Assembly (NCBI GenBank): GCA_014377705.1
Contig: JACMPC010000250.1
Location: 1-64,000 of the forward strand
DNA from: Dermatophilaceae bacterium
Lineage (GTDB): Bacteria > Actinomycetota > Actinomycetes > Actinomycetales > Dermatophilaceae
Direction of reading: 5' to 3'
DNA length: 64,000 nucleotides
The notes beneath the pieces were generated by a model that had not been told where the DNA came from, ran no database searches, and saw only the letters and a list, made by a program, of their open reading frames with translations. The position numbers and the translations under genes are program-made. The first letter of the stretch is position 1; every line of letters begins with the position of its first letter. Of this stretch, positions 31,271 to 58,819 are shown one piece after another.

Positions 31271-32599
31271 ATGCCGGCAGTGCCGCGGGTTCGCCGGGTC
31301 GCGATGCTGAGTGTCCACACCTCGCCGCTCGAGCAGCCGGGGACCGGCGATGCGGGCGGTCTGAACGTCTACGTCGTCGAGGTCTCGAAACGGCTCGCCC
31401 GCCGTGGCATCGAGGTGGAGATCTTCACCCGGATGACTGGCGGCTCGCAGCCGTTGCAGTCCGAGATAGCCCCGGGGGTGAACGTCCGCAACGTCGTCGC
31501 CGGGCCCTTCGAGGGGCTGGGCAAGGGCGACCTCCCCGGCCAGCTGTGCGCGTTCGCCCAGGGGGTCATGCGCGCCGAGGCGGCACGGCCCGAGGGCTGG
31601 TACGACCTGGTGCACTCGCACTACTGGCTCTCCGGGCAGGTCGGCTGGCTGGCGGCTGACCGCTGGCGGGTCCCGCTGGTGCACACCATGCACACGATGG
31701 CCAGGGTCAAGAACTCCCGACTGGCCGAGGGTGACGTTCCGGAGCCTCCCGGCCGTGAGATCGGTGAGGCGCAGGTCGTGGAGGCTGCCGACCGCCTCGT
31801 GGCCAACACCCCGGGCGAGGCAGGGGAGCTGATCGCGCTGTATGGCGCTGACCCCGACAGGGTGCGGGTCGTCTCGCCCGGCGTCGACCTGGATCTGTTC
31901 ACCGTCGGGGATGTGCCGGCGGCGCGCGCCCGGCTGGGGCTTCCCCAGGACGCGCACGTGCTGCTCTTCGTGGGTCGGATCCAGCCGCTCAAGGCTCCTG
32001 ACGTGCTGCTCAAGGCGGCGGCTGACCTGCTGGCCCGGCGACCTGAGCTGCGCCACAGATTGGTCGTTGCCGTGGTCGGCGGCCCGAGTGGCTCTGGTCT
32101 GGGCAAGCCCCGGGCGCTGCAGGAGCTGGCCCACCAGCTCGGAATCCACACCCAGGTGCGCTTCGTGCCTCCGGTCGACCGGGCAAATCTCGCGCTCTGG
32201 TACCGCGCCGCCGACCTGGTGGCCATCCCCTCGTACAACGAGTCGTTCGGCCTGGTCGCGATCGAGGCCCAGGCCTGCGGGACACCGGTCATCGCGGCAG
32301 CCGTGGGCGGGCTGCCCTACGCGACCGGTGACGGCGGGGTGCTCATCGACGGGCACGGGACGGCGGAGTGGAGCGCCGGGCTGGAGGCTCTCATCGATGA
32401 TCCCGGGCGCCGCGACCTGTTGGGTCGCAAGGCTGTTGAGCATGCCTCGCACTTCAGCTGGGAGGGCACCACCGACCGGCTGCTCGAGGTCTACACCGAG
32501 TCGATGATCGCCCAGGCGAGATCGGTTTCCGGCCAACCGGCCCCACCGATCGAGGATGCCGCGAAGCTCACCGGCGTTCCGGCCGCGGTGATCCCGTGA
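31271..32599 (+). CDS. mshA: D-inositol-3-phosphate glycosyltransferase MshA
   Basis: 442-residue GT4 enzyme, first step of mycothiol synthesis (UDP-GlcNAc plus inositol 3-phosphate). Diagnostic segments: [21 protein letters not shown] at the N-terminus, [34 protein letters not shown], and the donor-site E-x7-E in [17 protein letters not shown]. Length normal. ATG 31271 has GGGAGGGACCT just upstream. Followed by ybjN and gpm as in mycobacteria. Confidence 0.96.
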
Positions 32600-32624: not shown

Positions 32625-32705
32625 CGCACAGTCCCTAGGTTTGGCTGTTCTTAGCCGCACAGTCCCTAGGTTTGCGTGATGTCGGGCGCACAACCCCTAG
32701 GTTTG
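32625..32705. repeat. Tandem 31-bp repeats with CCCTAGGTTTG core, three copies
   Basis: CGCACAGTCCCTAGGTTTG begins at 32625 and 32656 and, with two changes, at 32687: a period of exactly 31 bp. The DNA between cores differs except for a GTCGGG shared with the copy at 53826. The array fills the mshA-ybjN gap and reaches into the possible 5' end of ybjN. Confidence 0.9.
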
Positions 32706-32714
32706 AGGGAGAGC

Positions 32715-33218
32715 GTGAGGTTGTGTCTGCGTCAGTTCCTGGACGAGGCCGGGATCGGGTGGGAGTTGGGGGTGCGGCCGGGGGAGCTTGTCGTCTCGCT
32801 GCCGGGGGAGAAGAAGCTGACCACTGTGTGCTCAGTGGTGGTGGGCGAGCAGTCTCTGTCGGTCTCCGCCTTCGTCGTGCGCAACCCGGACGAGAACCAC
32901 GCGGCCGTCTACGCGCACCTGCTGCGCCGCAACCTCAGGCTGCCCGGGCTTGCCTACGCCATCGACAGCTCCGGCGACGTGTACGTCACCGGGCGCGTTC
33001 CCCTCCAGGGGGTGAGTGCGGCATATCTCGACCAGGTCCTGGGCGTGGTCCTGGAGGCCTCGGACGGCGCTTTCAACGAGCTGCTGGCGATGGGATTCCT
33101 TGAGTCGATGAAGAAGGAGTGGGCCTGGCGCACCTCCCGGGGTGAGTCCACCCGCAACCTCGACGCCTTCCGTCATCTGCTGCAGACGCCGTCCGAGGGG
33201 CCGGCGCCAGCGCCCTAG
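32715..33218 (+). CDS. YbjN domain-containing protein
   Basis: 167 residues from GTG 32715, chosen because AGGGAG lies just upstream. The longer frame from 32676 would place the third 31-bp repeat inside the N-terminus. The YbjN core is clear: VSLPGEKKLTTVCSVVVGEQ, YAHLLRRNLRLPGLAYAID, DVYVTGRVPL, LDQVLGVVLEASD. YbjN proteins are of unknown or chaperone-like, type III secretion chaperone-like fold. It keeps its usual place between mshA and gpm. Confidence 0.88.
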   Translation: MRLCLRQFLDEAGIGWELGVRPGELVVSLPGEKKLTTVCSVVVGEQSLSVSAFVVRNPDENHAAVYAHLLRRNLRLPGLAYAIDSSGDVYVTGRVPLQGVSAAYLDQVLGVVLEASDGAFNELLAMGFLESMKKEWAWRTSRGESTRNLDAFRHLLQTPSEGPAPAP

Positions 33219-46440: not shown

Positions 46441-46641
46441 GTGAGTCAGCTTCCTTCACCGGCAGGAACGTGCCGGACGATCCGTTGTAAAGGTGACGAA
46501 CGCCGTGCGGGCGCCCTTGGGCCGGTGGGTGGAAAGACCGCACCGTGTCCTGGACTCTAGTCGATGGGGCCTATCTGCGTGCGGGCGCCCGCCCCTTGAT
46601 GCTCGCCTGAGCGGGCGGGCGAATGGTCCGTTGTGCAAATG

Positions 46642-52678: not shown

Positions 52679-53737
52679 GTGAGAGCGCGACTGGCGGACA
52701 TCGCCGAGCATGCCGAGGTCAGCGAGGCGACGGTCAGCCGGGTGCTCAACGGCAAGCCGGGCGTCGCAGACGGGACCCGGCAGGCGGTGCTCACCTCGCT
52801 AGATGTGCTCGGCTACGACCGGCCCAGCCGGTTGCGACGCAAGAGCGCCGGGCTCGTCGGCCTGGTCACCCCGGAGCTGACGAACCCGATCTTCCCCGCC
52901 TTCGCCCAGGCCATCGAGACCGCTCTGGCGCGCCAGGGCTTCACGCCGGTCCTGTGTACCCAGACCCCCGGCGGGGTGCACGAGGACGACTATGTGACGA
53001 TGCTTCTCGAACGTGGCGTGGCCGGGATCATCTACGTGAGCGGGCTGCACGCAGACTCGACTACCGACCCGCAGCGCTACGTGACCCTGCGCGAACGTGG
53101 CCTGCCGATCGTGCTGATCAACGGCTACATCGAGGGGGTCGACGCACCGTTCATCTCCAACGACGACGTCGCCTCGATGGATCTCGCCATCGGCCACCTG
53201 GTTGCCCAGGGGCACACGACCATCGGGCTGGCCGTGGGCCAGGATCGATTCGTTCCGGTCATCCGCAAGATCATCGGCTTTCGCAACGCCATGATGACCT
53301 TGCTGGGCCGCACGGATGTCGAGGACCTGATCGCGCACACGATGTTCAGCGTCGAGGGTGGTGCCGTGGCAGCTCAGCGGCTGATCGACAAGGGCGCCAC
53401 CGCGATCGTGTGCGGTTCGGACCTGATGGCGCTCGGAGCTATCAGGGCTGCCCGTCTGCGCGGGATGGAGGTGCCTCGTGACCTGTCCGTCGTCGGCTAC
53501 GACGACTCGCCGCTCATTGCCTTCACCGACCCCCCGCTGACCACGGTCCGGCAGAGCGTCCAGGCCATGAGCGAGGCCGCGGTTCGTGCGCTGCTGGACC
53601 AGATCGCCGGTGACCCGGCGCCGCTGGCCGAGTACGTGTTCCGCCCGGAGCTGGTCGTCCGCGGTTCGACCGGCGCAGCTCCCGGCTCACCCGCTTCAGC
53701 CAAGTCAGGCGCTGCCAGAGGTGGCTCGGCTCTCTGA
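52679..53737 (+). CDS. LacI-family regulator of the mal operon
   Basis: 352 residues. Helix-turn-helix and hinge at the N-terminus (RLADIAEHAEVSEATVSRVL, PGVADGTRQAVL), then the periplasmic-binding-like effector domain ending in DDSPLIAFTDPPLTTVRQ. GTG 52679 is preferred to 52646 because AAGGAAG lies just upstream and the LacI domain begins there. Last gene of malEFG-GH13; likely represses malE through the two operators at 46642-46695. The C-terminal 20 residues are low-complexity Ala/Ser/Gly. Confidence 0.92.
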   Translation: MRARLADIAEHAEVSEATVSRVLNGKPGVADGTRQAVLTSLDVLGYDRPSRLRRKSAGLVGLVTPELTNPIFPAFAQAIETALARQGFTPVLCTQTPGGVHEDDYVTMLLERGVAGIIYVSGLHADSTTDPQRYVTLRERGLPIVLINGYIEGVDAPFISNDDVASMDLAIGHLVAQGHTTIGLAVGQDRFVPVIRKIIGFRNAMMTLLGRTDVEDLIAHTMFSVEGGAVAAQRLIDKGATAIVCGSDLMALGAIRAARLRGMEVPRDLSVVGYDDSPLIAFTDPPLTTVRQSVQAMSEAAVRALLDQIAGDPAPLAEYVFRPELVVRGSTGAAPGSPASAKSGAARGGSAL

Positions 53738-53793: not shown

Positions 53794-53844
53794 CACACGG
53801 TCCCGAGGTTTGTGGGCTCTGCCGGCGCACGGTCCCTAGGTTTG
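53794..53844. repeat. Two further copies of the CCCTAGGTTTG repeat
   Basis: CACACGGTCCCGAGGTTTG (53794-53812, degenerate) and CGCACGGTCCCTAGGTTTG (53826-53844), 32 bp apart, in the 98-bp gap between the convergent lacI and otsB genes. After the second copy comes CGAGTTGTCGGG, nearly the CGTGATGTCGGG that follows the copy at 32656. Confidence 0.85.
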
Positions 53845-54705
53845 CGAGTTGTCGGGGTTTTGTCGGTGGGCGACGAACAGGTTGAGCAGGTGCACCACGG
53901 AAATCTGGTCGGGCACCCGTTGTGCCGCCAGGGTCTCGCCGTCGCCTACCTTGACCGTGAGGTCACCCGAGGCCGGGTCGAGGGCTGCGAAGGCCTTCTC
54001 GTCGGTCACGTCGTCACCGAGGTACAGCGTCGCGTCCGAGCCGGCGGCGCGGGCCAGAGCGCGGACCACCCTGCCCTTGTCCGGCTCGAGCACGGTCAGC
54101 TCGACGACGTCCTTGCCGGGCATCACATGCACGTGTGGATAGCGCTGGCCCACCTCGAGGGCGGCGGCGGTGGCGGCTGCTGCCACCGAGGGGTCCAGGC
54201 CCCGGGTGTGCAGGGCCACGGCGGCTGGCTTCTGTTCCAGCCGCGCCGCGGGGTACCGGGTTCTGATCGCATCGAGCTCGCCGCGCACCACGCTCAGGCT
54301 GGCGGTGGCCTCCGCGTCCAGCAGAGACGCACCCCGGGTCAGGCTGCCCCGACCTCCCCGGTCGCCCTCCTGTCCCTGGTCGCCCTGGTCTCCCAGGTTG
54401 GTTTGCGCGCCATGGCTGCCGACCAGGGTGATGCCGTCCTGCACGCCGATGCCGGTGAGCATCTCCAGGGTCGCCAGATCGCGCCCGGACACGACCGCGA
54501 CCGTGACGCCGCTGAGTGCGGCCGCCGCCCTCAGCACCTCGAGAGCGCCGGGGACCGCCCTGGCCTGCAGGGGGTCGATGACGAAGGGCGCCAGGGTGCC
54601 GTCAAAGTCGACCGCGACCAGCACCCGCGGCCGGCTGGCGAAGGCGGCGACCGCAATACGCAGCTGCGGGTTGTCCTCGGTCACAGGTCTGTCGTCTCCG
54701 GTCAC
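53836..54705 (-). CDS. otsB: Trehalose-6-phosphate phosphatase OtsB
   Basis: 289 residues, HAD-fold phosphatase. DFDGTLAPF (nucleophile Asp and acid Asp) near residue 33, VVSGRDL, GSHGAQ, and GDDVTDEKAF. A Gly/Asp/Gln/Arg-rich loop (DQGDQGQEGDRGG) near residue 105 comes from degenerate 9-bp repeats. GTG start overlaps the otsA stop by four bases. Its stop codon region lies in the repeat at 53826-53844. Confidence 0.93.
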   Translation of the reverse strand: MTGDDRPVTEDNPQLRIAVAAFASRPRVLVAVDFDGTLAPFVIDPLQARAVPGALEVLRAAAALSGVTVAVVSGRDLATLEMLTGIGVQDGITLVGSHGAQTNLGDQGDQGQEGDRGGRGSLTRGASLLDAEATASLSVVRGELDAIRTRYPAARLEQKPAAVALHTRGLDPSVAAAATAAALEVGQRYPHVHVMPGKDVVELTVLEPDKGRVVRALARAAGSDATLYLGDDVTDEKAFAALDPASGDLTVKVGDGETLAAQRVPDQISVVHLLNLFVAHRQNPDNSQT

Positions 54706-58619: not shown

Positions 58620-58800
58620 AACACACGCACGCGTGTTCGCAGCGCCAAACCTCGTCGGCGGACAGAGAACCGGGAAATTCCTGGGCATCGACGAGGGTGG
58701 GGGACCCAACTTCGAGCCGGCGAGACCGGCCCCAGGGGTGAAGCCGGAGTCCCGGCCAGGCACACCTGACAGCCTGAACCCGACAGCTGACCTCTCCGGC
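58620..58800 (+). ncRNA. Candidate c-di-AMP (ydaO/yuaA) riboswitch
   Basis: The leader of the Rpf-like gene contains CGCCAAACCTCGTC, then GGGTGGGGGACCCAAC and CCAGGGGTGAAGCCGG, matching conserved blocks of ydaO riboswitches (GCCGAA-like, GGGGGACCCA, GGGGTGAA). In actinobacteria this class often controls resuscitation-promoting-factor genes. CTGACCTCTCC (58787-58797) could pair with the ribosome site GTCAGGAGGA. The first 200 bp of the 400-bp gap (58420-58619) show nothing recognisable. Confidence 0.75.
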
Positions 58801-58819
58801 GTGCGTCAGGAGGATCCCT

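Follow-up and report, generated by a model that had tools for sequence, protein, structure and literature searches.

In the genome from which the window derives (the window being the whole 64,000-nucleotide stretch of DNA analysed here), a 19-bp core recurs in helically phased arrays at the ends of genes. Its copy number, phasing, lack of single copies, constrained core, gene-end position, polarity of decay and one-sided G+T-rich flank can all be read directly from the DNA. From these we infer protein binding, cooperativity and a boundary role: the arrays may be composite sites for a putative sequence-specific DNA-binding protein of the genus, which would act as a boundary at gene ends, a reading on which our confidence is evenly poised.

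The core and its two arrays in the window

Five cores, all on the plus strand, lie in the window, with starts at 32625, 32656, 32687, 53794 and 53826. The first three occupy the junction of an mshA-like gene with ybjN and start exactly 31 bp apart, as the preliminary description had it; in the second array, next to otsB, the start-to-start distance is 32 bp. The features concerned are:

31304..32599, plus strand: GT4 glycosyltransferase (mshA-like), the upstream gene; 25 bp separate the end of its stop codon from the array
32625..32643, plus strand: core copy 1, CGCACAGTCCCTAGGTTTG (consensus from 216 units)
32644..32655, plus strand: spacer, 12 bp
32656..32674, plus strand: core copy 2, CGCACAGTCCCTAGGTTTG
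32675..32686, plus strand: spacer, 12 bp, containing the GTG (32676) at which the ybjN frame now starts
32676..33218, plus strand: YbjN family, the downstream gene; the array stands in place of the 5' end that the gene has in three other species of the genus
32687..32705, plus strand: core copy 3, CGCACAACCCCTAGGTTTG, across which the ybjN frame reads
32706..32804, plus strand: G+T-rich flank past the TTTG end; third codon positions in 32717-32804 are 80% G+T
52679..53737, plus strand: LacI-family regulator, converging on the second array
53794..53812, plus strand: one core of the array next to otsB, CACACGGTCCCGAGGTTTG
53813..53825, plus strand: spacer of the second array, 13 bp
53826..53844, plus strand: the other core of this array, CGCACGGTCCCTAGGTTTG, whose minus-strand CAA-ACC-TAG (stop 53838-53836) terminates otsB
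53836..54684, minus strand: trehalose-phosphatase (otsB), with its stop codon inside the core

The core, 19 bp long, is CGCACvrTCCCTAGGTTTG, constrained at positions 2-5 and 7-19 and with A, C or G at position 6 (216 units). Its self-complementary part is confined to CCTAGG (6 bp), and the palindromic core of the preliminary description shrinks to that hexamer. A chance origin is ruled out by two controls: at up to three mismatches the window yields five cores against none in 100 dinucleotide shuffles of it, and a search of the whole genome with CGCACVRTCCCTAGGTTTG at up to two mismatches yields 180 matches against none for the reversed pattern. These numbers uphold the earlier view of a repeat family rather than chance, supersede its count of five copies and exclude a local five-copy repeat. 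That description had held that finding only five copies, or all relatives lacking the core, would speak against a family; there are 180 copies here and 151 in the sister species.

At the first junction, ybjN of at least one related species starts at the mshA stop codon (a GTGA overlap). In the window's genome the array took the place of the first ybjN codons, such that the frame starts in a spacer and crosses a core. Neither an intrinsic terminator (a GC-rich hairpin with a T run) around the array at 32625-32705 nor a sigma-70-like promoter at the mshA-ybjN junction was found. Elsewhere in the window, Rfam matches an msiK RNA element (46445-46501, minus strand) and a c-di-AMP (ydaO) riboswitch (58669-58817, plus strand).

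Phasing, distribution and inheritance of the arrays

The array set comprises 45 array-bearing regions and the window, among the matches listed, and some arrays may be absent from it; on this basis the genome holds at least 73 same-strand arrays (about 75) with 216 units. Same-strand neighbours in the arrays listed lie 32 bp apart in 104 cases and 31 bp apart in 32, with seven at other distances (95% at 31/32 bp); without the spacing filter, up to 120 bp, the corresponding counts are 77, 25 and 8. At up to two mismatches, 178 of 183 copies have an in-phase partner, 31/32 bp away or, in head-to-head pairs, 20/21 bp away, for which chance would provide 0.3%. Of the other five, two are truncated at contig ends and the remaining three each have a neighbour, at 25, 63 and 33 bp respectively; no isolated core occurs among the listed copies. 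Runs in one direction, not alternation, predominate within clusters, and outward-facing pairs of arrays (CAAACCTAGG... ...CCTAGGTTTG) are frequent. In the tightest head-to-head pairs 1-2 bp separate the cores (20/21 bp apart; nine cases in two genomes). Head-to-head distances of 20-53 bp are in helical phase in the window's genome, whereas those beyond 21 bp in the sister genome (27, 44, 57 and 67 bp) are not strictly phased, and strict helical phase at every head-to-head distance is accordingly rejected.

The spacers, 12-13 bp long, behave differently from the cores. Between arrays they are 32% alike, which is the random level; inside one array they are 62% alike, and adjacent spacers of equal length 66%, indicating that core and spacer are duplicated together, locally, as units multiply. 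The 12 bp after one copy, earlier taken as a conserved unit, are indeed identical to the corresponding stretch of the distant array at 10 of 12 positions, yet the genome-wide spacer values do not bear out such a unit. Since arrays with unrelated spacers all share one period, the period is imposed rather than accidentally inherited, and, fixed at 31/32 bp across independently formed arrays, it corresponds to about three helical turns. A 19-bp core with an obligatory phased partner and free spacers is what would be expected from cooperative protein binding on one face of the helix. Thus, of the options in the preliminary description, arrayed protein-binding sites are the best-supported reading, in view of the fixed period, the lack of isolated copies, the conserved core and the free spacers. 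Two or more cores 31-32 bp apart, or a head-to-head pair at 20-21 bp, would place proteins on the same helix face; molecules so placed would bind cooperatively, and single cores would not persist.

The genome of the window (3.78 Mb, 278 contigs) and that of the sister species (about 280 contigs) are both drafts, and some arrays of the latter include runs of N. Within the genus, the core search gave 151 matches in the sister species and 2 and 1 in two other species; among 54 further genomes of the family and order, one had a single two-mismatch match. When 84,980 species genomes were scanned for exact matches, multi-copy loci turned up only in the sister species MAG UBA4719, of actinomycete (Actinomycetes) lineage. 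A core-spacer-core profile made from 66 arrays matched 45 times in the window's genome and 46 times in UBA4719; beyond these two, it gave traces in two other species of the genus and one marginal match across 188 family genomes, and one weak match in a sample of 396 order genomes. The arrays are thus strongly lineage-restricted and abundant in two species of one genus. A phage or plasmid source is rejected, as 72,556 plasmids and 50,697 phages provided only single unrelated matches. No known RNA family matched at the arrays and no published description of the motif was found among 5.39 million papers.

The two array-rich species share about 82% DNA identity, and 18 pairs of arrays at orthologous junctions can be compared. 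Core identity is the same in orthologous (0.822) and non-orthologous (0.824) arrays, whereas spacer identity is 0.42 in orthologous arrays and 0.32 otherwise (p=4e-5). This retained trace in the spacers, together with equal core identity, indicates that arrays are inherited while spacers drift and cores are held. The constancy of the core may reflect selection or a copying process restricted to the core; concerted evolution by such a copying mechanism could explain it instead of selection. Decay is polar, with the copies at the CGCAC end more decayed in 38 arrays and those at the TTTG end in 14 (p=0.001). At nine junctions shared with the array-poor species there is one clear two-plus-two array (region L215, beside a dnaJ-like gene); at the others, remnants can be discerned by eye at some and none at the rest. 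The core is absent from the mshA-ybjN junction of three other species of the genus and from the otsB junction of both species readable there, and both arrays of the window are recent gains; the empty sites are too diverged for exact target duplications to be read.

Some loci illustrate how arrays sit relative to variable genes. The same two arrays flank different genes in two species, namely one that is exonuclease/phosphatase-like by eye (region L143, 3984-4976) and one for a small membrane protein (region L064, 5140-5465), and hence arrays can bracket variable gene content. In the sister species, a gene that may be AbiEi-type antitoxin/DUF559 endonuclease-like lies between outward-facing arrays (L058, 4200-5600), and in the window's genome an array truncates it (L111, 9880-10400). 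At the grpE/dnaJ-like junction of the sister species (L059, 2940-3260), several tandem 15-bp GACCCGCAACCCAAG units lengthen the upstream coding sequence up to the array.

The usual explanation for interspersed repeats in bacteria is a mobile palindrome of the REP type. An account on these lines, in which a putative enzyme copied the cores to gene ends, where they were amplified locally and are harmless, is possible though on the unlikely side. The recent gain of both window arrays and the tight lineage confinement, with copy numbers surging in two species, fit it; REP families likewise cluster and prefer intergenic sites (PMC2817692), and the arrays resemble REPs and BIMEs in exceeding 100 copies per genome, in being extragenic and often clustered, and in occurring in both orientations. 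In contrast, the core is non-palindromic and lacks a GTAG-type tag, the repeats are mostly direct rather than alternating, solitary copies are absent, and the length between copies is fixed, where inter-REP segments are substantially variable (PMC2817692). No match to the RAYT (Y1 transposase, PF01797) was found in the 97%-complete genome, while control genomes were positive. Inheritance at orthologous positions holds for at least 18 arrays, with spacers, not cores, randomising. The neighbours read from sequence are diverse housekeeping genes (the Pfam check covers those of the window only), with no recurrent gene, mobile-element gene or transposase in or beside the arrays. Palindrome, RAYT, spacing and solitary copies all rule out REP/BIME membership, with which copy number and extragenic location would agree. 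Of the transposable mini-element offered as an alternative in the preliminary description, the classical form is not supported, for want of a Y1 transposase, a recurrent gene and a palindrome, whereas the gain and loss of arrays agrees with it. A reverse-transcriptase engine was also considered and rejected: RVT_1 genes number one to a few per genome of the genus, with one in the window's genome, presumably a group II intron maturase, and more in the nearly array-less G002, and array copy number does not track them. A CRISPR array is different too, as the spacers here are of 12-13 bp and alike within an array, and the neighbours are not cas-like by sequence reading.

Gene ends as the favoured position

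Gene calls came from a simple codon-usage caller and are approximate, and the gap regions were picked around arrays, such that only the ratio between gap types is meaningful: arrays are present in 25 of 61 convergent gaps (41%), 23 of 204 codirectional gaps and 3 of 57 divergent gaps (5%). When it faces a gene end, the TTTG end lies near the stop codon, and in 13 arrays, that at otsB included, the TAG of the element itself (CAA-ACC-TAG) is the stop of the gene. This preference for gene ends and convergent gaps suggests a boundary role. Mainly between convergent genes, the arrays would most likely work as such a boundary, in the form of a transcription roadblock and/or an anchor for handling positive supercoils. 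A general terminator is excluded, as there are about 75 arrays for several thousand genes. The even split of orientation in codirectional gaps (16 versus 15) counts against a strictly polar roadblock, which would predict a preference. The window's own array also speaks against the boundary reading, in that mshA and ybjN are a tightly coupled pair in relatives, inside which a terminator would be oddly sited.

A comparable placement of directional protein-site arrays just downstream of genes is known from eukaryotic roadblock terminators, namely the Sal boxes with TTF-I and the Reb1 sites; for the present arrays, a roadblock function is one that we infer. Positive supercoils accumulate between convergent genes, and GapR is found at gene 3' ends and in convergent gaps (PMC8360656). 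These are the same genomic places as those of the arrays, although what GapR recognises is overtwisted DNA, with no sequence motif of this kind (PMC8360656). REPs and BIMEs, for their part, are targets of gyrase, IHF and DNA polymerase I and help Rho to terminate transcription (PMC2817692).

The one-sided G+T-rich flank and its possible causes

In the first 90 bp of ybjN, third positions are 80% G+T, compared with 43-53% in three array-less relatives, and they are alike further on. Across the window's genome, third-position G+T on the unit strand past the TTTG end is 0.79 at 1-30 bp, then 0.70, 0.64 and 0.58, with a baseline of 0.52 beyond 150 bp; the flank is thus about 100-150 bp long and fades outward. 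Paired per array, G+T is raised in 40 of 44 cases in the window's genome (p=1e-11) and in 22 of 36 in the sister species (p=0.03), where the effect is weaker and shorter. The skew was not seen in gene 3' ends beyond the CGCAC end. At 11 sites where orthologues served as the reference, the changes that lie within 80 bp favour G and T, with C>G and C>T dominant, and those beyond 150 bp are balanced. The G+T enrichment at synonymous positions (regions L103-L147) could be the mutational footprint of a directional DNA process. At ybjN the skew tracks the strand of the array and not the mRNA, which argues for a directional cause at the DNA level. Of the four arrays whose TTTG end points at a gene start, three have raised G+T, which is not significant alone; with these four in the informative orientation, a DNA-level cause is favoured and one at the mRNA level is also possible. 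Textbook models of replication-fork and of RNA-polymerase arrest both expose the gene strand; arrest of either kind is rejected by reasoning only, the G+T-rich strand being the unit strand and not the gene strand.

The iteron arrays of plasmids such as RK2, F and P1, bound by Rep/TrfA, may serve as the closest working analogue, with no claim of membership. Iterons are repeated head to tail in units of 17-22 bp, with 19 bp in F and P1; TrfA favours DNA with two or more of them, a half-turn displacement abolishes cooperativity, and the Rep proteins then attach to a single strand of neighbouring DNA that has been opened on one side (PMC4980987). The present arrays are similar in their 19-bp unit, never single, their helical phase and their one-sided, strand-biased flank. 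They differ in being dispersed at chromosomal gene ends (about 73-75), in lying three turns apart and in having no linked rep/initiator gene among the flanking genes seen; the flank is also G+T-rich, where an A/T-rich unwinding element is described for iterons. The TTTG end would, as a working idea on polarity, be the active side at which DNA is opened, and new units would join there via local duplication of core and spacer. An initiator-like protein on gene-end arrays that opens or displaces DNA one way past the TTTG end, repeatedly exposing one strand, is an unlikely proposal. Such directional opening would explain the strand-specific G+T drift over 100-150 bp, the fresher copies at the TTTG end and the encroachment of arrays on and into stop codons.

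Alternatively, the arrays and C/A-rich gene ends might act in mRNA, through Rho loading or pausing or through 3'-UTR processing. This is rather doubtful. In genes that face the TTTG end, the final 90 nt of the coding strand are rich in C and A and low in G, like Rho sites, and the hairpins of head-to-head arrays are very stable (z about -9 to -10); against this, the single-direction arrays tested fold no better than shuffles, about half of the codirectional arrays are oppositely oriented, a helical period of 31/32 bp makes no evident sense at the RNA level, and at the start of ybjN the skew follows the array strand, albeit in an orientation with the same few arrays. Still less credence can be given to outward-firing promoters or enhancers, whereby transcription started in the array would cross the TTTG end and leave the non-template strand G+T-rich. 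The fading unit-strand skew does fit an exposed non-template strand, and the window array would read into ybjN; however, that junction lacks a sigma-70-like promoter, divergent gaps, the natural place for promoters, are those that least often hold arrays, and most arrays would fire antisense into gene ends. Neutral tandem duplication of a chance 19-mer, to which the likeness of spacers within arrays lends local unit duplication, is barely credible and refuted by independent arrays that share core and period despite unrelated spacers, and by core identity that is constant despite divergence.

Returning to the phased protein-binding sites, the family combines a REP-like abundance with another design: non-palindromic, helically phased, never solitary, at gene ends and limited to one genus. 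Should a dedicated protein bind these arrays, they would constitute a gene-end boundary or termination system so far unrecognised in bacteria, and the strand-specific footprint would record a directional DNA transaction taking place at them.
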